Shown here piece by piece: positions 21,146-34,994 of a DNA stretch of 64,000 nt (its first letter is position 1; each line of letters starts with the position of its first letter). The DNA is from Salinigranum marinum. Lineage in GTDB: Archaea; Halobacteriota; Halobacteria; Halobacteriales; Haloferacaceae. The notes below the pieces were generated by a model. That model did no database searches. It saw only the letters and a program-made list of their open reading frames with translations, and had not been told where the DNA came from. A program made the translations under genes and the position numbers. The DNA lies in the NCBI RefSeq assembly GCF_024228675.1, contig NZ_CP100461.1:372001-436000 (forward strand). Reading direction: 5' to 3'.

Positions 21146-22621
<1,476 letters not shown>

Positions 22622-22948
22622 TACCTGGTCGACGACACCGGCCTGTATATTCTTTTGGGCGCTATACGGCGTCTTCACGCGGTCGTTTTCCGCCCTGGCC
22701 GGTCCGGTCGACACGCGTGTCGACGCCCGGAGCGAGCGGCGCGGCGTCGGGTGGGCCGTGCGGTTCGTTTCGCGGGCCGAGGGTCGGGGACGGTGACCGC
22801 GGCGGGACACCGACTCACGAACATACAAATACTGCCCAGCACATCGGCGTGTCATGGACGGGACGCTCGACGGAACGGCCGCGAGGATCACCGACGCGGG
22901 GACGGTTCCGACCGTGGCCCCGACGGCCGTTCGCCGTCCCCTGCCCGC
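22622..22948. other. 327-base divergent control region (kaiC-like / peptide permease)
   Basis: No credible gene. AT-rich elements lie near 22647-22665 (TATATTCTTTTGGGCGCTATA, read toward the kaiC-like gene on the minus strand) and near 22820-22835 (ACATACAAATACTG, toward the permease operon). Confidence 0.4.
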
Positions 22949-23899
22949 ATGAACCAGCTCAGATACATCGGCGTCCGGATCCTCCAGACGGTCCCCGTGT
23001 TGTTCGGCGTCTCGGTCGTCGTGTTCGCCATCATCCACTCGGCTCCGGGCGATCCGATCGTGAACCTTCTCGGCATCGAGGCCACCGAGGGGAACGTCGA
23101 CCGGCTCCGGCGGCAGTACGGCCTCGACCAGCCGATCTACGTCCAGTACCTCGAGTGGCTCGCCGGGGTGCTCCAGGGCGACCTCGGGCGCTCGATCACC
23201 CAGAGCCGACCCGTCGCGAGCCTCATCGCCAGCCGGCTCCCGGCGACGCTGTTTCTCGCCATCGCGTCGATGCTCGTCGCGGTCGCCATCGCGGTCCCGG
23301 CGGGGGTCGTCAGCGCGGTGAGGAACGGAACCCCCACTGACTACGCCGTGACGGCGGGCGCGCTCGCCGGGGTCTCCGTCCCGAACTTCTGGCTCGGGCT
23401 CGTGCTCGTCTTGGTGTTCGCCCGCACCCTCGGGATCGCCCCCCCGGGCAACTACGTCTCGCCGCTCGCCGACCCGGTCGCGGCGGTCAGACACGTCGCG
23501 ATGCCCGCGGTGACGGTGGGCACGGCCTTTGCCGCGCTGCTCGCCAGACAGACACGGTCGTCGATGCTCGACGCCCTCTCGACGGAGCACGTCCGGATGG
23601 CCAAGTCCAAGGGGCTTCCGTCGCGGACCGTCTTCGTCCGCCACGCGCTGAAGGGTGCGCTCCTCCCGGTCGTGACCGTCGCCGGCCTGCAGTTCGGCTA
23701 CCTCCTTTCGGCGACGGTCGTCGTCGAACAGGTGTTCGCGTGGCCCGGCATGGGCCGACTCATCTGGCTCGCCGTCCGCCAGCAGGACTACCCCACGCTC
23801 CAGGGCACCGTCCTCGTCGTCGCGACGCTGTTCGTGGCCGTGAACCTCGTCGTCGACCTCGCGTACGCGTATCTCGACCCACGGGTGGGATCCGCGTGA
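22949..23899 (+). CDS. ABC peptide-type permease, DppB-like
   Basis: A 316-residue inner component of a dipeptide/oligopeptide/nickel ABC importer with six membrane segments. The N-terminal RILQTVPVLFGVSVVVFAIIH and the GDPI...YGLDQPIYVQYL stretch are typical of DppB/OppB. The ATPase-coupling EAA-like loop is MAKSKGLPSRTVFVRHALKGALLPV. Start at ATG 22949 because the first membrane helix follows directly. Its stop overlaps the next permease start (GTGA). It works with the proteins encoded at 23896 and 24789 and probably with the binding protein at 27966. Confidence 0.9.
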   Translation: MNQLRYIGVRILQTVPVLFGVSVVVFAIIHSAPGDPIVNLLGIEATEGNVDRLRRQYGLDQPIYVQYLEWLAGVLQGDLGRSITQSRPVASLIASRLPATLFLAIASMLVAVAIAVPAGVVSAVRNGTPTDYAVTAGALAGVSVPNFWLGLVLVLVFARTLGIAPPGNYVSPLADPVAAVRHVAMPAVTVGTAFAALLARQTRSSMLDALSTEHVRMAKSKGLPSRTVFVRHALKGALLPVVTVAGLQFGYLLSATVVVEQVFAWPGMGRLIWLAVRQQDYPTLQGTVLVVATLFVAVNLVVDLAYAYLDPRVGSA

Positions 23900-24786
23900 C
23901 GCCCCGGCCGCGCCGCACGCGCGTCTGGCGGTCGTTCCGGAGCCACCCACCCGCTGTGGCCGGACTCGCCGTCGTCGCGGTCGTCACGGTCGTCGGCGTC
24001 GTCGCGTTCGTCGACGACGCCCTGCTGGGCAACGCGCTCGTCACGGCCGTCTGGCACAGCCCGTTCGATCCGGCGTTCGTCCCGCTCGCCCCGCCCTCTC
24101 CCGCCCACCCGTTCGGAACCGACAGCCTGGGGCGGGACGTCCTCGCGCGGACCGTCTACGGCGCGAAAGTGTCTGTCCAGGTCGCTCTTACTGCCGTCGT
24201 CGTCGCCGCCGTCGTCGGCTCCCCCCTCGGGATCGTCGCGGGCTACGCCGGCGGCACGGTCGAGACGGTGCTGATGCGCCTCGTGGACGTCCTCCTGGGC
24301 TTTCCGGCGCTCGTCCTCGCCATCGGGCTGGTCGCCGCGCTCGGCTTCAGCCTCACCAACGTCGTCATCGCCCTGGGGGTGGTGTACGTCCCGCAGTTCG
24401 CCCGCATTGCCCGGAGTTCGGCCCTGTCGGTGTCGGAGGAAGAGTACGTCGACGCCGCCCGCGTGCTGGGCTACTCGCGGACGCACATCGTCTTCCGCGA
24501 GGTGCTCCCCAACAGCGTCTCCCCCCTGCTGGTGCAGGCATCGTTGCTCATGGCCTTCGCCATCATCGCCGAGGCGTCGCTGTCGTTCCTCGGGCTCGGC
24601 GTCCAGCCGCCGACGCCGACGTGGGGAGCGATGGTGTCGGCCGGCAGCGGCTACCTCACCTCGGCCCCGTGGATCTCGCTGTTCCCCGGGGGCGCCATCT
24701 TCCTGTCGGTGCTCGGCTTCAACCTCGTCGGCGACGGCCTCAGAGATGCTCTCGACCCGCGCGACGTCTCCGAACGGAGGTTCTGA
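23896..24786 (+). CDS. ABC peptide-type permease, DppC-like
   Basis: A 296-residue second permease of the same importer. A short Arg-rich N-terminus and first helix (VAGLAVVAVVTVVGVVAFV) are followed by the DppC mark HPFGTDSLGRDVLARTVYGAK and by the coupling loop EEYVDAARVLGYSRTHIVFREVLPNSV. It starts at GTG 23896, inside the end of the upstream permease gene, indicating translational coupling. The product forms the membrane channel with the DppB-like protein. Confidence 0.9.
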   Translation: MTPRPRRTRVWRSFRSHPPAVAGLAVVAVVTVVGVVAFVDDALLGNALVTAVWHSPFDPAFVPLAPPSPAHPFGTDSLGRDVLARTVYGAKVSVQVALTAVVVAAVVGSPLGIVAGYAGGTVETVLMRLVDVLLGFPALVLAIGLVAALGFSLTNVVIALGVVYVPQFARIARSSALSVSEEEYVDAARVLGYSRTHIVFREVLPNSVSPLLVQASLLMAFAIIAEASLSFLGLGVQPPTPTWGAMVSAGSGYLTSAPWISLFPGGAIFLSVLGFNLVGDGLRDALDPRDVSERRF

Positions 24787-24788
24787 TC

Positions 24789-26927
24789 GTGACTCGCAGG
24801 GACACCTCGACACCGGCTCCACGGGGTGACACCGGTGCGGAGCCGGTGCTCGCCGTCGAGGGGTTGACGACCGAGTTCGCGACCGACGACGGCGTCGTCC
24901 GCGCGGTCGAGGACGTGAGTTTCGAGCTGTACCCCGGCGAGACCTTGGGAATCGTCGGCGAGTCCGGATCGGGAAAGAGCGTCACAGCGCGGTCGATCGT
25001 GGGCCTGCTCGACGACACCGGCCGGATCGCAGCCGGGTCCGTTCGGCTCAACGGGACGGAGCTCACGACCCTCTCCGAGCGCCGGCTCCAGCGCGTCCGC
25101 GGCACCGAAATCGCGATGGTGTTTCAGGACCCGACGGCGGCGCTGACGCCCGTGGTCACGGTCGGAACGCAGCTCGTCGAGACGATCCTGACCCACCAGG
25201 ACGTCACGAAACGCGAGGCACGCGCCCGCGCCGTCGACCTCCTCGAATCGGTCCGGATTGCCGACCCCGAGGCGGTCGTCGACGCGTACCCCCACCAGCT
25301 GTCGGGCGGCCAGCGCCAGCGCGTCCTCGTCGCCATCGCGGTCTCCTGTGACCCCGACGTGCTCATCGCCGACGAGCCGACGACGGCGCTCGACGTGACG
25401 ATCGAGGCGCAACTCCTCGACCTCCTCGACGAAGTCGCCCGGGAGCGCGATCTGAGCGTCGTCCACATCACCCACGACCTCGGCGTGATCGCGGCGGCGG
25501 CCGACCGCGTCGCCGTCATGTACGCGGGGCGGTTCGTCGAGACGGGCGCGACCGACGACGTGTTCGGCTCGCCGAGACATCCTTACACCGCGGGGCTGCT
25601 CCGGGCGACTCCCCGGCTCGAAGACGTCGAACCAGAACTCCTCGCGGGGAGCGTTCCCACGCCCGAGTCGCGGCCGCGTGGCTGTAACTTCGCCCCGCGG
25701 TGTCCGCACGCGACCGACGCCTGTCTCGCCGACGACCCGCCGTTGAGTGCGCTCGACGGGCACGACCTCGACGAACGTGACCTCGGCGCGGACGGGCTCG
25801 ACGGACGCGACGCCGGTGGACGCGGCGCACGCGCGGTCGCCTGCGTCCGAACGGAGGCGATCGGCGCGCTCGACCCGACGCCGCCGGCGACCCGCGACCG
25901 ACGAGCGGGAGCGAACCCGGGGGAGACGCTCGTCGAAGCACTCGGCCTCCGAAAGGAGTTCAGCGCCGCGTCCGGGCTCGTCGACCGGCTCCTCCCCGGC
26001 GGCGACCCCCCGGTGCAGGCCGTCGACGGCGTCGACCTCGCGCTGCGCGAACACGAGACGGTGGCGCTGGTCGGCGAGTCCGGCTCCGGCAAGACGACCC
26101 TCGGACGGCTGCTCGTCGCCCTCACCGACCCCACTCACGGGGCGGTCCGCTTCGCGGGACGCGACCTCACCGCAGTCCCCGACGCCGAACTCAGAGGCCG
26201 CGTTCAGTTCGTCTTTCAGGATCCCAGCTCGTCGCTCAACCCCCGGCAGACGGTCGGCCGAATCCTCCGGTACGCGGTCGAGAAACACGACGACAGCGAC
26301 GGAGACGCCGAAGCGCGCGTCGTCGAACTCCTCGAGGAGGTGGGGCTCGATCCGGCGACGCGGGACCAGTACCCCCACCAGCTGTCGGGCGGGCAGAAAC
26401 AGCGCGTCGCCGTCGCCCGGGCGCTGGCGGTGGACCCCGACGTGCTCATCGCCGACGAGCCCACGTCGGCGCTCGACGTGAGCGTCCAGGGACAGGTGCT
26501 CCACCTCCTCGACCGGATCCAGCGCGAGCGCGGCCTGGCGATGCTGTTCGTGAGCCATGATTTATCAGTAGTGAGACACGTGTCCGACCGCGTCGCCGTG
26601 ATGTATCTCGGGCGGATCGTCGAGGTCGGCGCGACCGAGGCGCTGTTCGAGACGCCGCTGCACCCCTACACCGAGGCGCTCATCAGCGCCGTCTCGTCGC
26701 CCGACCGCGGAGACGAGTCCGAGCGGATCGTCCTCGACGGGGAGATCCCCGACCCGAAAGCGCCACCCACGGGCTGTAACTTCGCCTCGCGCTGCCCGAA
26801 AGCGATGGACGAGTGCCACGGCCGCGACCCCGACCTGGTCCCGGTCGAAGACGACGGGGACCTCGACGGACGAGAGGTCGCCTGTCTGCTCCACAGCGAC
26901 GCGACGCGGTCGGAACCGTCACGCTGA
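24789..26927 (+). CDS. Fused double ATPase subunit of a peptide-type ABC importer (DppD-DppF)
   Basis: A 712-residue protein carrying two ABC cassettes that are separate DppD and DppF proteins in many bacteria. Cassette 1: Walker A GESGSGKSVTAR (about residue 57), signature LSGGQRQRV, Walker B VLIADEPTTALD. Cassette 2 (from about 380): GESGSGKTTLG, LSGGQKQRV, VLIADEPTSALD. Both end with the oligopeptide-type cysteine-containing region (GCNFAPRCPHATDACL and GCNFASRCPKAMDECH), known in related ATPases to bind an Fe-S cluster. GTG start two bases after the DppC stop. The linker (about 330-380) is acidic and Gly-rich. Confidence 0.9.
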   Translation: MTRRDTSTPAPRGDTGAEPVLAVEGLTTEFATDDGVVRAVEDVSFELYPGETLGIVGESGSGKSVTARSIVGLLDDTGRIAAGSVRLNGTELTTLSERRLQRVRGTEIAMVFQDPTAALTPVVTVGTQLVETILTHQDVTKREARARAVDLLESVRIADPEAVVDAYPHQLSGGQRQRVLVAIAVSCDPDVLIADEPTTALDVTIEAQLLDLLDEVARERDLSVVHITHDLGVIAAAADRVAVMYAGRFVETGATDDVFGSPRHPYTAGLLRATPRLEDVEPELLAGSVPTPESRPRGCNFAPRCPHATDACLADDPPLSALDGHDLDERDLGADGLDGRDAGGRGARAVACVRTEAIGALDPTPPATRDRRAGANPGETLVEALGLRKEFSAASGLVDRLLPGGDPPVQAVDGVDLALREHETVALVGESGSGKTTLGRLLVALTDPTHGAVRFAGRDLTAVPDAELRGRVQFVFQDPSSSLNPRQTVGRILRYAVEKHDDSDGDAEARVVELLEEVGLDPATRDQYPHQLSGGQKQRVAVARALAVDPDVLIADEPTSALDVSVQGQVLHLLDRIQRERGLAMLFVSHDLSVVRHVSDRVAVMYLGRIVEVGATEALFETPLHPYTEALISAVSSPDRGDESERIVLDGEIPDPKAPPTGCNFASRCPKAMDECHGRDPDLVPVEDDGDLDGREVACLLHSDATRSEPSR

Positions 26928-27965: not shown

Positions 27966-29585
27966 TCACTCCACGCTCGCGGCGTCGAGCGACCGGAACG
28001 AGCCGTTGGGGTACTGCTCGAAGCCGGAGATCCGCGTCGAGATGCCCTGGATGCGCTGTGGGTAGTCGGTGTAGATCGAGTACGCCTCCTCGTACGTGAG
28101 CCGCTGGATGCGGTCGATCAGCGCCGCCCGCGCCTCGGGATCGACCGCGCGGCGCTGGTCGTCGAGCAGGGCGTCGAGCTCGTCGTTGGCGACGTTCCAG
28201 ACGTTCAGCCCCTCGCTGTGGTACAGATACAGGAGGGTGTCCGGGTCGCCGAACCAGGTAAAGTTCGAGATGGCGACCTCGAAGTCGCCGCTCGTCTCCT
28301 GCGACCAGAAGGTGTTGCCGTCGAGGGACTGGATCTCCGCGTCGACGCCGATCTCTCCCCACATCGCCTGGACGAGCGTCGCGGTGCGCCGGTGGCGCGA
28401 CTGCGTGGAGGTCTTGATCTCGAGCGAGAGGCCGTCGCCGTAGCCTGCATCCGCGAGCAACGCCCGGGCCCGTTCGGTGTCGCCCGTCGGGTGGTTGAAG
28501 TCCGAAACCGCGTCGTTGTACTGCGGGAACGAGTCGGGGAGGATCGACGTTCCCGGGGTCCCGAACCCCTGTAAGACCGTCTCGACGATGCGCTCCTTGT
28601 CGATGGCCCACGCGAGCGCGCGGCGCACCCGCCTGTCGCCGAGCGGTTCGACGTCGGTGTTGAAGTCGACGCGGCCGGCGCTCACGCCGGTCGTCGTGAT
28701 CACCCGCGCGTTCCCGGCGGCTTCGACGCGCTCCGTGAACTGTGGCGGCATCCGGTCGACGAGGTCGACGTCGCCCGTCTCCAACTGGGCGACCTTCGAG
28801 GAGTCCTCGGGGAGGATATGGAACTCGATCCGATCGATCGCGGGTCGGCCCCGCCAGTAGTCGTCGTACGCTTCGAGGACCGCCCGGTTGCCCGACTCCC
28901 ACTCGGTGAGTTCGAACGGGCCCGTCCCTACCGGATTCTGGTTGTACGCGTCGCCGTGTTCGTCGATCGCCGTCTTCGACAGCGGCCACATCACGGCGTG
29001 GATCTTGTACAGAAGCGGCGCGAACGGCTCGGAGAGGTCGAACCGGACGGTGCGGTCGTCCTCGACGACGACGTCCTCGACGGCCGCGAGGTCGCTCCGC
29101 CGCGGGTTCTCGTTGGTCTGGATCCAGTCGTAGGTGTACTTCACGTCCGCGGCGGCGAACGGCTCGCCGTTGTGGAACGTGACGCCCTCCTCGAGTTCGA
29201 AGACGTACTGGGTGTCGCTCTCGCGGCGCCAGTCGGTCGCGAGATCCGGAACCACCCCGGCGTCGGCGTCGAGATTGACGACGTTGTCGGACAGCAGCGT
29301 GTACACCTTGTTCGAGTCGAAGTCGGTATCGCGCGGCGGGAGGAGGTCCCAGCCGCCGTTGGCGATGCCGATCCTGACGACCGTCTCCTCGTCCGTCCCG
29401 GCGGCGGTGTCGGCCGATCCCGCCGTCCCGCCTCCCGAGCCACCGTCGTCACCGGCGTCGCCGCTCGCCCCGCCTCCCGAGCCACCGGCACAGCCCGCGA
29501 CCCCCGCGAGCCCGGTCACACCGACGCCAGCGAGGAACCGCCGACGACTCGGCGTCATCCACCCTCGTGTGTGGTCGCTTCCCAT
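27966..29585 (-). CDS. Peptide-type ABC substrate-binding lipoprotein (SBP family 5)
   Basis: A 539-residue extracellular solute-binding protein. The N-terminus has a Tat-like SRRRFLAGVGVTGLAGVAGC with a lipobox (VAGC), followed by the Gly/Ser/Asp-rich spacer typical of haloarchaeal lipoproteins. The mature part is family 5 (Dpp/Opp): EEGVTFHNGEPFAAADVKYTYDW, PVGTGPFEL, RRALAWAIDKE. The start may be ATG 29585 or 29558. It is convergent with the permease/ATPase operon and very likely supplies that importer. The ligand could be peptides, sugars or nickel; sequence does not decide. Confidence 0.88.
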   Translation of the reverse strand: MGSDHTRGWMTPSRRRFLAGVGVTGLAGVAGCAGGSGGGASGDAGDDGGSGGGTAGSADTAAGTDEETVVRIGIANGGWDLLPPRDTDFDSNKVYTLLSDNVVNLDADAGVVPDLATDWRRESDTQYVFELEEGVTFHNGEPFAAADVKYTYDWIQTNENPRRSDLAAVEDVVVEDDRTVRFDLSEPFAPLLYKIHAVMWPLSKTAIDEHGDAYNQNPVGTGPFELTEWESGNRAVLEAYDDYWRGRPAIDRIEFHILPEDSSKVAQLETGDVDLVDRMPPQFTERVEAAGNARVITTTGVSAGRVDFNTDVEPLGDRRVRRALAWAIDKERIVETVLQGFGTPGTSILPDSFPQYNDAVSDFNHPTGDTERARALLADAGYGDGLSLEIKTSTQSRHRRTATLVQAMWGEIGVDAEIQSLDGNTFWSQETSGDFEVAISNFTWFGDPDTLLYLYHSEGLNVWNVANDELDALLDDQRRAVDPEARAALIDRIQRLTYEEAYSIYTDYPQRIQGISTRISGFEQYPNGSFRSLDAASVE

Positions 29586-29733
29586 GGCAGTACACGGAGT
29601 ATCCGAACCGCGTTGATAAGTCTTCCCACCCGTGAACGGCCGAGTCGGCACCCGTACGGTCCGAACGGTTTTTGCCGCGGGACGGACTCCCCCCGAGCGT
29701 GGACTGGTCGCACGGGCCAGTCAGGGCCCACCC

Positions 29734-31035
29734 ATGATCACGAAAGCCGAACTCTACGACGCGGTCGACGAGCGCGAGGCGGAGCTCGTCGCGTTCATGC
29801 GCGACTTCCTCGCCATCGAGACCGAGAACCCCCCGGGGCGGAACTATGCCGAGGGGGCGGCGTTCCTGGCCGGGGCGATGGAGCGGCGCGGCTACGACGT
29901 CGAGGAGGTCCGCGTCCCGTCCGACGTGGTCGCCCGTCACTACCCCGACCGGACCGACCACGAGCGCGTGAACGTCATCGGGCGACAGACCGGCGGTGCG
30001 GAAGAAACGGGCCACGACACCGGGGATGACGCGAACGACGGGCCTCACGTTCACTTCACCGGCCACTTCGACGTGGTCCCCGCGGGCGAGGACTGGTCGA
30101 CCGATCCGTACGACCCGGTCGTCGACGAGGGCCGCATCTACGGCCGCGGCGCGTCGGACATGAAATCCGGCATCGCCGCGAGCCTCTTCGCCGTCGACGC
30201 GCTCCGCGCCGTCGGCCCTCCGCTCCCGGGGACGATCACCCAGAGCATGACCGTCGACGAGGAGACGGGCGGGTTCACCGGGCTTGGCTTCCTGGTGGCG
30301 GAGGGGTACGTCTCGCCCGACAACACGGACTTCTGTGTGTACACCGAGTGTTTCGACTCCTCGCGCGTCTGTCTCGGCCACCGTGGCGTCCTCAAGTTCC
30401 ACGTGACGGCGACGGGAACGAAGGCCCACGGCTGTATGGCGCACGACGGACACAACGCGATCACCGTCATGAACGACTTCCTCACCCGGATCGAAGCCTA
30501 CCGCGAGGAACTTCACGGGCGGACGACCGACCTGCCGGTGACGCCCGTCGAGTCGCGCCACGCGGACGTCTCGGCGACGATGCTCGACGCGGGCTACTCC
30601 GAGAACGTCGTCCCCGACCGGTGTCGGGCGACCTTTTACCGAGTCCTGGTCCCCGGCGAGACGGTCGAGGCCGCCCGCGAGGAGATCCGCGCGCTCATGG
30701 CCGAGACCGAGTCGGCCCTCGAGAGCGACCTCTCGTACGACGAGATCATGTACGCCGAACCGACCGCCGTCTCGGAGGAGTGCACCGTGGCACGGACGTA
30801 CGTCGACCACGTCCGCGACTTCCACGCCGATCCCGCGTTCGTCGTCTCGCCGGGCTCGGACGATCAGCGGTTCGTCGTCAACGACGCCGGCATCGAGGAG
30901 TGTATCGTCTACGGCCCCGGCCTCCTCGACCAGGCGCACGTCGTCGACGAGTACGTCCCGATCGAGGAGGTCCTCACCGCGGCGAAGGTGATGGCCGTCT
31001 CGACGGCGGACCTCATGGGGGTGCTCGCGAGGTGA
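29734..31035 (+). CDS. M20-family amidohydrolase/peptidase (ArgE/DapE-like)
   Basis: A 433-residue M20 metallohydrolase, cytosolic. Metal and catalytic residues are intact: HFTGHFDVVPAG (His, catalytic Asp), GASDMKSG (bridging Asp), VDEETGGFTG (catalytic Glu and metal Glu), and a C-terminal His in DQAHVVDEYV. The dimerisation domain begins at GHRGVLKFHVTATG (about residue 210). M20 enzymes cleave N-acyl amino acids, N-succinyl-diaminopimelate and peptides. Its stop overlaps the next gene's GTG, so the three genes 29734-32728 form a coupled operon that includes an LpxC-like protein, suggesting a deacylation pathway (inference). Confidence 0.88.
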   Translation: MITKAELYDAVDEREAELVAFMRDFLAIETENPPGRNYAEGAAFLAGAMERRGYDVEEVRVPSDVVARHYPDRTDHERVNVIGRQTGGAEETGHDTGDDANDGPHVHFTGHFDVVPAGEDWSTDPYDPVVDEGRIYGRGASDMKSGIAASLFAVDALRAVGPPLPGTITQSMTVDEETGGFTGLGFLVAEGYVSPDNTDFCVYTECFDSSRVCLGHRGVLKFHVTATGTKAHGCMAHDGHNAITVMNDFLTRIEAYREELHGRTTDLPVTPVESRHADVSATMLDAGYSENVVPDRCRATFYRVLVPGETVEAAREEIRALMAETESALESDLSYDEIMYAEPTAVSEECTVARTYVDHVRDFHADPAFVVSPGSDDQRFVVNDAGIEECIVYGPGLLDQAHVVDEYVPIEEVLTAAKVMAVSTADLMGVLAR

Positions 31036-31943
31036 GCGACGCGACCGGGCTCTGCCGCCCGCCGGACGCCGTCGTGGCCGCGGCCCGTGCGGCCGCCGAC
31101 GACCGGGACGGCGCGGCCGCACACGTCGTCGTCGCCGACCCCGCGGCCGACGGGGACGCGACGCTCGAAGACGGACGGTACGAGGGTCCCGACGCGGTCG
31201 CCTGTGGCCACCTCGCCGCGGCGCTGTCGGTCGCTGACGCGACCCCCGGAGTGAGGCTCCACCACGGCGACGTCGATCTGACGGCCGAGGGGGCGTGGCT
31301 CGTCCTCGCTCCGCTCGACGGGCTGATCGCGACGGTCGCGACCGGCACCGCGACGGCGACAGTGACGGTTCCGATCGACGAGCCGGCCCGGATCCGGCCG
31401 GTTCGCGCTCGCCTCGACGCCGTGCTCGCGGCCGCCCGTGCCCGGCACGACCACTACCCGGTCGCCGACGACGAGCGAGGCGTGTTCCGGACGGGGATGA
31501 CGACGTTCTCGTTCCGCGAGACGATTCGGGAGAGCGGGCTGCTTCGGGTCCGCTTCGACGTGTCGACGACGCCCGCGACGACGCGGAGCGAGGTCACGGA
31601 GCGATTCGCGTCGCTCGCCATCTCCGACCCCGGCGACGGCGACGAGACGAGTGCGTTCGAACCGAGCGGCGTCGACGTCACGTTCGAGGCCGGCGTCGAA
31701 CGCGCCGATCCGAGCGTCGACGTCCGCGATGCCGTCGAGACGGCCCACCGGGCGGTCGTCGGCGACGCGGGGTACGAGTGGCTCGCGCGGCCGACCGTCT
31801 TCTCGCGACTTCCCTCGGCCGAAAAGGTCGCGTTCGGCGGCGGGCGGCCCGGCGATCGGTTCGACGGCGACGACTTCGAGCGCACGCGCGCGCTCCTCGA
31901 ACGGGTCACAGAGCGCGTGTCGGGTCGGGAGGGGCGGGCGTGA
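31032..31943 (+). CDS. Uncharacterised protein, middle gene of the M20/LpxC-like operon
   Basis: A 303-residue soluble, acidic protein that I do not recognise. It starts at GTG 31032 (GTGA overlap with the M20 stop) and ends overlapping the next start (GTGA again). Visible features: an Ala/Asp-rich N-terminal part, TTFSFRETIRESGLLRVRFDV in the middle, and a conserved-looking C-terminus YEWLARPTVFSRLPSAEKVAF followed by a Gly-rich turn. The C-terminal part faintly recalls M20 dimerisation/closing segments, but no catalytic metal ligands are seen. Function unknown; probably acts with its coupled neighbours. Confidence 0.6.
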   Translation: MSDATGLCRPPDAVVAAARAAADDRDGAAAHVVVADPAADGDATLEDGRYEGPDAVACGHLAAALSVADATPGVRLHHGDVDLTAEGAWLVLAPLDGLIATVATGTATATVTVPIDEPARIRPVRARLDAVLAAARARHDHYPVADDERGVFRTGMTTFSFRETIRESGLLRVRFDVSTTPATTRSEVTERFASLAISDPGDGDETSAFEPSGVDVTFEAGVERADPSVDVRDAVETAHRAVVGDAGYEWLARPTVFSRLPSAEKVAFGGGRPGDRFDGDDFERTRALLERVTERVSGREGRA

Positions 31944-32728
31944 CGCCGAACGCCGACGTCCGGACGCTCGCCGAACCCGTCGCCGGCAGCGAGGTCCGGG
32001 TCGAACCGAAGGCGACGCCGGGGATCGAGATCAACGGGATCCCGGCCGACCTCGCCCACGTCGTCAAGGCCGACGTCCGGGTCGATCTCGCGGCGGCCGA
32101 CGGATCGAATCGGGGCACGAACCGGGCGTTCGTCGTCGAACACGTCCTCGGGCCGCTCGGCCTCCACGGGGTGACGGCCGCTCGCGTCGAGGGCCTGACC
32201 GAGACGTGGGCGTTCGCCCGCCCCGAACACCGCTTTTGTTACTCGACCGGGCTCCCCCCGTCGAGCGTCGTCGGCCACCCTGCGGGACTGCCGAATCCCG
32301 ACCTGGCGGCGGCGCTCGGGCGTATCGACCTCGTCGGGCAGCCGTCGACCCGGACGACCGTCTCCGAACCCGTGACTGCCGAGACCCGGGGCGGTCGGCT
32401 CACACTTCGCCCGCGAGAGTACGGTTCGGGGATCCGCTTCGAGGCGTCGTACGGCGAGGCGTCGCTGGTGGTCGAGGTCGACCCTCTCGAAGGAGCCGAC
32501 GACGCGCTCGTCGAGCGGGTGACGACGAGCACGACGCCGTACCTGTCGCCCGACGGCGGGGAGGGGGTCACACACGCCATCGCCGACCTCGTCTCGGACG
32601 TCGCCGTCCTGGGTGGGTTCGACGACCTCGTGGTCGAGGCCGATCTGGCCGAGGCGTACCACACGCTCACGGTCGGGGCGGTGCGGACGGCGCACGAGAC
32701 GGGCGTCGTCGTCGACCGCGACGGCTGA
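31940..32728 (+). CDS. LpxC-like deacetylase homologue (UDP-3-O-acyl-GlcNAc deacetylase superfamily)
   Basis: A 262-residue protein with a full LpxC-type catalytic pattern. VEHVLGPLGLHGV aligns with VEHLxAALAGLGIDN and gives E67/H68; VTHAIADLVSDV aligns with VRHKxLDAIGDL and gives H212/D216; AYHTLT aligns with the GHxLN histidine (H241). E. coli LpxC uses E78, H79, H238, D242 and H265 in the same order. TPGIEINGIPAD matches the first-domain start. It is about 40 residues shorter than bacterial LpxC and lacks the long second-domain insert. Archaea have no lipid A, so the substrate must differ; I infer a zinc amidase on an acylated or acetylated sugar. GTG start, coupled to the gene before. Confidence 0.7.
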   Translation: MTPNADVRTLAEPVAGSEVRVEPKATPGIEINGIPADLAHVVKADVRVDLAAADGSNRGTNRAFVVEHVLGPLGLHGVTAARVEGLTETWAFARPEHRFCYSTGLPPSSVVGHPAGLPNPDLAAALGRIDLVGQPSTRTTVSEPVTAETRGGRLTLRPREYGSGIRFEASYGEASLVVEVDPLEGADDALVERVTTSTTPYLSPDGGEGVTHAIADLVSDVAVLGGFDDLVVEADLAEAYHTLTVGAVRTAHETGVVVDRDG

Positions 32729-33482: not shown

Positions 33483-34994
33483 ATGACAGAAGAACGAAGC
33501 GACCGCGATCGGCCGCTCAGCCTCGACAGACGGGACGTCCTCCGCACGATCGGTGGCGCGGCCGCCGCCGGCGCGCTCGCAACCCCGGTCGGGACGGGGC
33601 GGGCGGCCGCCGACTCCGGCGGTTACTCCGCCGTCCAGGGGGATCAGTGCGTCCCGATGACGCCGTTGTCGGGCGATCAACCGGTCGAAGAACTGTACGA
33701 CCTGCGGATCCCCGATCGGTTCACCGGGGACAACGGTGCGACGGATCCGGGGTCCGGACCCTACTACGGTTCGGTCGGCACCGAGGACCTCCAGCAGGAG
33801 GACACGACGATCACGTTCCTGTACGACGGCCCGGACGGGCTGAGCCTGGTCGTCGTCCACGGCGCGTTCGGCGGCGACGGCGGACGGGGCGTCTCCTGGA
33901 CGCTGCGCGGCGACAGCCTCGCGGACGGTGAGTGGACCGTGAAGGACGACTTCTACCTCGACCAGGACACCGGCGAGCCGGCGGGCTCGAACTACGACCG
34001 CTGGGACGTCTCGGGGAACACACACACTATCGACTGGACCTGGGGCAGCTCGGGAACCGACGGTGGTGCGCTCCGCCCGCTCGGCGACGGCTTCGACCTG
34101 ACGATCGACCCCGCGTACAACGAGGACGCTGCCCTCTGGGGAGACAACTACTACGACGGCGAAGTGACCGACTGGCAGGTCCTCTCGTTCCCCGACGGGC
34201 GAAGCAGTCCCGAGCGGACGTCGCTCGCGCTCGACGAGAGAGTGACGATCCGTTCACGAGCGTGCGACAGCACCGTCGAGGCCGAGATCGACGTCCGCTC
34301 GCGGATCAATCCGAAGAGCCGGGGCGTCGTCCCCGTCGCGCTCTTCGGCACCGACGAGCTCGACCCGGAGGACGTGGCAGTGGGCACACTCCGGTTCGGA
34401 CCTCCGGGCGTAGTCGGCGAGGGAGACGGTGCCCGAGCCGCACACGGCGGGCACCTCGAAGACGTCGACGGCACCGGCGGCGACGATCTCGTGCTCCACT
34501 TCCCCACGCCTGACACCGGCTTCGACGGCGGCGAGACGACGGCGAAACTCGTCGGAGAAACGACCGACGGGAGGCGCATCGTCGGAACGGACGGGGTGAC
34601 GGTACAGGCTCCCGAAGACGACGAGGGCGAACGCGGTGAGAGCGGTGAGGCCGACGAAGACGATCAGCCCGGTGAGAGAAACGACGAGGGCGAACGCGAC
34701 GAGGAGGACCGATCTACCGAGGAAGACGACGCGGAAGGCGAACGCGGTGCGGACGATCAGGGCGAGGAAGAAAACGATCGGGAGGGGGAAAGCGGCGAGC
34801 CAGAGGGGAAAGAGAACGGACGAGGTGAGGAGAACGGCAGGGGGCGGAACGACGAGAAGGGAGAGAACGGACGAGGTGACGAGAAGGGAGAGAACGGACG
34901 AGGTGACGAGAAGGGAGAGAACGGACGAGGTGACGAGAAGGGCAACGGGAAGAACGACCAGAACGGCGGAGGAGCGAACGGAGCGGGCGACTGA
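33483..34994 (+). CDS. Tat-exported protein with a repetitive acidic C-terminus
   Basis: A 503-residue secreted protein. The twin-arginine signal is DRRDVLRTIGGAAAAGALATPV (about residues 15-37). A conserved middle domain (about 260-375) has INPKSRGVVPVALFGTDELDPEDV and HLEDVDGTGGDDLVLHFP, a motif set seen in secreted proteins of archaea and bacteria without known activity. The last 120 residues are Glu/Asp/Gly/Asn-rich with tandem DEKGENGRG units and should be disordered. The start is the ATG at 33483. A TATA-like GGCTATAACT lies about 45 bases upstream. Possibly a surface or extracellular-matrix protein; function unknown. Confidence 0.7.
   Translation: MTEERSDRDRPLSLDRRDVLRTIGGAAAAGALATPVGTGRAAADSGGYSAVQGDQCVPMTPLSGDQPVEELYDLRIPDRFTGDNGATDPGSGPYYGSVGTEDLQQEDTTITFLYDGPDGLSLVVVHGAFGGDGGRGVSWTLRGDSLADGEWTVKDDFYLDQDTGEPAGSNYDRWDVSGNTHTIDWTWGSSGTDGGALRPLGDGFDLTIDPAYNEDAALWGDNYYDGEVTDWQVLSFPDGRSSPERTSLALDERVTIRSRACDSTVEAEIDVRSRINPKSRGVVPVALFGTDELDPEDVAVGTLRFGPPGVVGEGDGARAAHGGHLEDVDGTGGDDLVLHFPTPDTGFDGGETTAKLVGETTDGRRIVGTDGVTVQAPEDDEGERGESGEADEDDQPGERNDEGERDEEDRSTEEDDAEGERGADDQGEEENDREGESGEPEGKENGRGEENGRGRNDEKGENGRGDEKGENGRGDEKGENGRGDEKGNGKNDQNGGGANGAGD
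34851..34942 (+). repeat. 27-bp tandem repeat (3.4 copies) in the Tat-exported gene
   Basis: Identical 27-base units occupy 34851-34877, 34878-34904 and 34905-34931, with the first 11 bases of a fourth after them. Each encodes DEKGENGRG. Exact identity suggests recent slippage or unequal exchange. Confidence 0.92.

Follow-up and report, generated by a model that had tools for sequence, protein, structure and literature searches.

A putative LpxC-fold amidohydrolase and its constant partner in probable catabolic gene clusters of haloarchaea

A short protein that is very likely homologous to LpxC is encoded in the 4.9 Mb genome of the haloarchaeon Salinigranum marinum, within a 64,000-nucleotide stretch (contig NZ_CP100461.1, positions 372,001 to 436,000; hereafter the window, whose own numbering is used throughout). 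The LpxC-like protein (262 amino acids, positions 31940–32728, forward strand) keeps the complete catalytic set of LpxC, lacks the insert that lines the acyl pocket, and is the last of three overlapping genes, following an M20 amidohydrolase gene and a partner gene, with an Opp/Dpp-type importer further upstream. We propose that it is a zinc amidohydrolase of the LpxC fold with which the catabolism of a small N-acyl compound begins, and we regard this as rather probable. LpxC is a bacterial enzyme and an antibiotic target that starts the synthesis of lipid A (endotoxin), and archaea make no lipid A. Its insert II forms the tunnel for the acyl chain, K239 holds the UDP pyrophosphate and the sugar, and K239 and F192 together are contacts to glucosamine and UDP.

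The LpxC-like gene and its catalytic residues

The reading frame begins with a GTG codon and stays open over all 262 codons, and its start overlaps the stop codon of the partner gene by the four bases GTGA. It is a real gene, with homologues at 12 loci and the upstream partner gene kept.

In Escherichia coli LpxC, E78 is the general base, H79, H238 and D242 are the zinc ligands, T191 stabilises the oxyanion, and H265 is the general acid, tuned by D246 (PMC6286764; PMC13342928). Seven equivalents lie in the same order in the haloarchaeal protein, the first two placed by profile alignment and the others by the columns of hhalign: E67-H68 (32138–32143; E78-H79), predicted as general base and zinc ligand, T199 (32534–32536; T191) as oxyanion stabiliser, H212 (32573–32575; H238) and D216 (32585–32587; D242) as zinc ligands, D220 (32597–32599; D246) as partner of the general-acid histidine, and H241 (32660–32662; H265) as that general acid, all on the forward strand. 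All seven are invariant in 12 of 12 loci, which is unlikely to arise by chance because only about one quarter of the alignment columns are invariant in the family; the chance for all seven would be 0.25^7 as a rough estimate, although these residues sit in more conserved regions. An initial annotation, made from the letters of the DNA, had named E67, H68, H212, D216 and H241 at exactly these places, and all five are kept in the orthologues; T199, D220 and the constant partner gene it did not mention.

The same annotation described the protein as short and devoid of the bacterial acyl-tunnel insert, which agrees with the spacing: 12 residues separate T199 from H212, whereas 46 separate T191 from H238 in the E. 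coli enzyme, so that insert II is gone. The column of K239 holds alanine, serine or tryptophan in the family, and that of F192 holds proline (P200). A family-specific invariant block, RPEHR...VVxHPxGLPNP, is not found in LpxC, whose DGSA motif is replaced by RPEHR. With the catalytic set kept and insert II, K239 and F192 lost, the chemistry appears to be retained and the known recognition of substrate not. The protein is best classed, from its sequence, as a distant homologue and not as an LpxC orthologue, because insert II and the residues contacting sugar and UDP are missing.

Evidence for homology to LpxC

Each line of evidence for homology is modest by itself, and it is their combination that makes common descent with LpxC very likely. 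On its own, the window protein retrieves no family or structure from Pfam, NCBIfam or the PDB. A profile of 10 family members against the PDB retrieved LpxC entries at an E-value of 0.01, in alignments that keep the VEH and H...D motifs in register; the sole other match was an enolase fragment (E 0.5). The LpxC family PF03331 (structures 1p42, 4mdt and 6mae) was the best Pfam match of seven of the 10 members scanned singly (E 0.0012 to 0.23), the matches falling on N-terminal, middle or C-terminal parts of the model according to the member and in correct order, while the remaining three (L026, L027 and L029) gave no Pfam match; the best score, 18.8 bits, lies under the curated cut-off of 27 bits. 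Aligned by hhalign to eight bacterial LpxC sequences, the 10-sequence family scored 29.8 (E 0.0022), the highest score among 30 column-shuffled controls being 20.4.

Structure comparison points the same way. An AlphaFold model built from three sequences (pLDDT 38, thus of low confidence) was searched with Foldseek, and its first 49 matches were all LpxC chains (best E 4.8e-5). VIA-align placed domain II of the same model on that of LpxC (Z 12.3, root-mean-square deviation 3.5 over 110 residues), the next fold being EF-G domain IV at a Z of about 8. The distant relationship to LpxC that had been guessed by eye is thus supported by profile, hhalign, Foldseek and VIA-align matches.

Distribution of the family

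Whole-genome searches recovered the family at 12 loci in 11 haloarchaeal genomes (eight among 391 genomes of the class, two more from the order sample and one congener), and the window protein is 52–78% identical to the other eleven. The spread is patchy: of four genomes sampled from the genus, two are without the gene. No relatives were found in plasmid or viral-contig searches, and no protein in 393 genomes of the phylum exceeded the PF03331 cut-off, at which E. coli and other bacterial controls were positive. Those weak whole-genome matches that were opened turned out to be other or antisense frames and not members; the family as defined here also leaves out the low-scoring matches L013–L017, L041, L042 and L050–L053, which were not opened. 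The literature that was searched contains no description of an LpxC relative from archaea, a negative that is not proof of absence.

The partner protein

The partner gene (31032–31943, forward strand, 303 amino acids) stands directly upstream of the LpxC-like gene at all 12 loci, one of which lies at a contig edge and shows just the end of the partner gene. Four-base GTGA overlaps link the M20 gene to the partner gene and the partner gene to the LpxC-like gene, and an intact M20 amidohydrolase gene precedes the pair in nine of 11 readable loci. Since two loci keep partner and LpxC-like gene alone, without the M20 gene, these two genes form the constant pair.

Sequence searches of Pfam, NCBIfam and the PDB found nothing for the partner. 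Foldseek with a three-sequence model (pLDDT 45) gave M20 family proteins as all of its first 37 matches, so that the fold class would be shared with M20 enzymes of the ArgE/DapE type (TIGR01910), from which the partner differs in having no recognisable sequence match and no conserved metal ligands: across 11 partner sequences no conserved set of the M20 zinc ligands (HxD, D, EE, H) is present, and H139 is the sole invariant residue among histidine, aspartate, glutamate and cysteine. Reading the partner by eye as a degenerate M20 enzyme found no backing from sequence methods, the support coming from the fold search only. Judged by its model, the partner likely has the M20 fold but no zinc site.

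Gene cluster and replacement pattern in related clusters

The first gene of the trio encodes an M20 amidohydrolase of the ArgE/DapE type (29734–31035, forward strand; PF01546 at 9e-29, TIGR01910 at 1.7e-73), here called the core M20. Upstream lie the genes of the Opp/Dpp-type ABC importer: an OppB-like permease (22949–23899, forward; 69% to OppB of a homologous locus), an OppC-like permease (23896–24786, forward; PF00528, about 75% to OppC of a homologous locus), a fused OppDF-like ATPase with two ABC_tran and two oligo_HPY domains (24846–26927, forward), and an SBP_bac_5 solute-binding protein (27966–29651, reverse; PF00496 at 3.6e-94) that is likewise linked in homologous loci. Around the trio, homologous loci mostly carry an SDR, a betaine-aldehyde-type dehydrogenase and an Opp importer, and in most larger clusters a class-III aminotransferase, a methylmalonate-semialdehyde dehydrogenase (MMSDH) and an Lrp regulator are linked as well. 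The last three recall known beta-alanine-type modules, which differ in that here they are coupled to the SDR, aldehyde dehydrogenase (ALDH) and M20 core and to an LpxC-fold protein, an association found in no paper. In the genome of the window, SDR and ALDH lie elsewhere, beside genes that by eye resemble a branched-chain-type ABC importer.

The core M20 gene occurs in 15 of 332 genomes of the class and in all five LpxC-like genomes of that sample (hypergeometric 9e-8, a value that ignores phylogeny and is mostly explained by adjacency). All tested LpxC-like genomes possess it, and in one of them, G754, it stands on another contig than the pair.

The main reason to assign the pair to an entry hydrolysis is a replacement pattern. 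We read 15 core clusters without an adjacent pair, from five annotated plasmids, nine genomes and G754; as L070 and L117 are one locus, they represent 14 distinct clusters. An additional M20 hydrolase, here called M20b, occurred together with an SSS symporter in 14 of 14, some adding a hydrolase of the C45 or carbamoylase family or amidohydrolases, whereas none of these was present in the nine core clusters that have the pair, in a comparison that ignores phylogeny. The pair would thus perform the hydrolysis done elsewhere by M20b, with which it appears to share its place in the pathway.

Some observations on these clusters may be recorded separately. A C45-family (penicillin acyltransferase-like) hydrolase lies beside M20b and SSS in L068 (9904–11013), L069 (14521–15612) and L072 (9988–11076), all three being clusters on haloarchaeal plasmids that share the SDR-M20 core. 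An integrase-like gene immediately follows the trio in Salinigranum salinum, the named relative nearest to the window's genome (L020, 9103–10167), and a TruB-like gene is found further downstream both there and in the species of the window. Within the window, a 934-amino-acid frame (21146–23950, reverse) is KaiC-like by eye in its later part; its true start is probably internal, because its first part is antisense to the OppB gene. The frame at 33483–34994 has a Tat-type signal start and C-terminal repeated DEKGENGRG-like units.

Proposed function and alternatives

In the mechanism that we propose, zinc would be bound by H68, H212 and D216 and water activated by E67, T199 would stabilise the tetrahedral intermediate, and the leaving amine would receive its proton from H241 under the tuning influence of D220. 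A small polar N-acyl compound may be able to enter the pocket, because insert II is gone and the UDP and glucosamine contacts are lost. The co-translated partner, with its likely M20 fold and no zinc site, probably supplies substrate binding or dimerisation. The substrate would be imported by the Opp-type importer and its entry amide cleaved by the LpxC-like protein with its partner; the product would be taken over by the M20 amidohydrolase, the SDR and the aldehyde dehydrogenase, joined in many hosts by the beta-alanine-type aminotransferase and the semialdehyde dehydrogenase; in related clusters the ordinary hydrolase M20b, fed by the SSS symporter, would carry out the same step. The analysis itself shows the homology, the conserved residues, the loss of the insert, the linkage of the genes and the replacement pattern, while zinc binding, hydrolysis, complex formation and substrate class are what we infer here. 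A bolder extension, which we hold to be somewhat less likely than not, is a two-subunit amidohydrolase in which the M20-fold subunit lost its zinc site and the LpxC-fold subunit took over catalysis, so that the chemistry of lipid A deacetylation was recruited into the catabolism of small molecules in archaea.

Several points weigh against the main proposal. The amidase activity is itself an unproven prediction. With 12 sequences instead of 10, the hhalign score against LpxC drops to 23.7 (E 0.019), a value reached by one of 200 shuffles, although the placing of the motifs is unchanged. Both structure models are of low confidence (pLDDT 38 for the LpxC-like protein and 45 for the partner), VIA-align yields no alignment of domain I, so that H68 falls outside it (which is not evidence of a different fold), and hhalign of the partner against M20 is negative, leaving its M20 assignment on the low-confidence model only. 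The replacement is not strict, because an M20b/SSS cluster and the pair coexist in G754, and the beta-alanine link is not universal, because the window's own genome is missing a close orthologue of the aminotransferase.

As to the substrate, a first alternative is that the protein deacetylates an acyl-sugar or a nucleotide sugar of archaea, compounds that the initial annotation offered as possible targets of a repurposed zinc amidase. The distant homologue with a complete catalytic set and no acyl-tunnel insert has held, and completeness of that set would suit such a reaction, but this substrate seems very improbable: K239 and F192 are not conserved (alanine, serine or tryptophan, and P200), the insert for the tunnel is absent, genes for glycans or lipids show no regular linkage in homologous loci, and the genes that are linked are catabolic and transport genes. 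A narrower form of the catabolic proposal takes the substrate to be pantothenate or a close N-acyl-beta-alanine, amide cleavage giving pantoate, to be oxidised by SDR and ALDH, and beta-alanine, for the aminotransferase and MMSDH. It is attractive because every linked enzyme would be used, all four being linked, and in G086 a second LeuB-like dehydrogenase follows directly after ALDH (L059, 9837–10814), apart from the leucine-operon copy. Even so, we hold this specific form to be improbable, as the LeuB-like paralogue occurs in that one genome only, the window's genome is without the close aminotransferase orthologue, the nearest solved aminotransferase is a taurine:2-oxoglutarate enzyme, and a literature search gave no support. 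Two related candidates were discarded: LeuB as a general pathway member, for the only close match in the window's genome is the leucine-operon copy, and the SSS symporters as pantothenate transporters, their panF score being below the cut-off and below putP.

As to the pair, the LpxC-like protein might be a catalyst on its own, with the partner acting on the neighbouring M20 enzyme, as its regulator or chaperone, and standing outside any complex with the LpxC-like protein. The fold class apparently common to the partner and that enzyme and the overlap of their genes speak for this arrangement, but at two loci the partner and LpxC-like gene are kept without the M20 gene, and we consider it unlikely. 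Very improbable is a protein that has lost or changed its catalysis and become a binding or structural protein; the unusual invariant block absent from LpxC might suggest this, yet no catalytic residue varies among loci whose proteins are 52–78% identical to that of the window.

Implications

To our knowledge, LpxC has been described only as a lipid A enzyme. If the proposed zinc amidohydrolase is real, the LpxC fold would be a general zinc amidase scaffold, found in archaea with its catalytic set and without acyl tunnel or UDP contacts. It would separate the parts of LpxC that serve chemistry from those that serve the substrate, with a bearing on the origin of the fold, and would provide a function for a patchily distributed, unannotated haloarchaeal gene pair.
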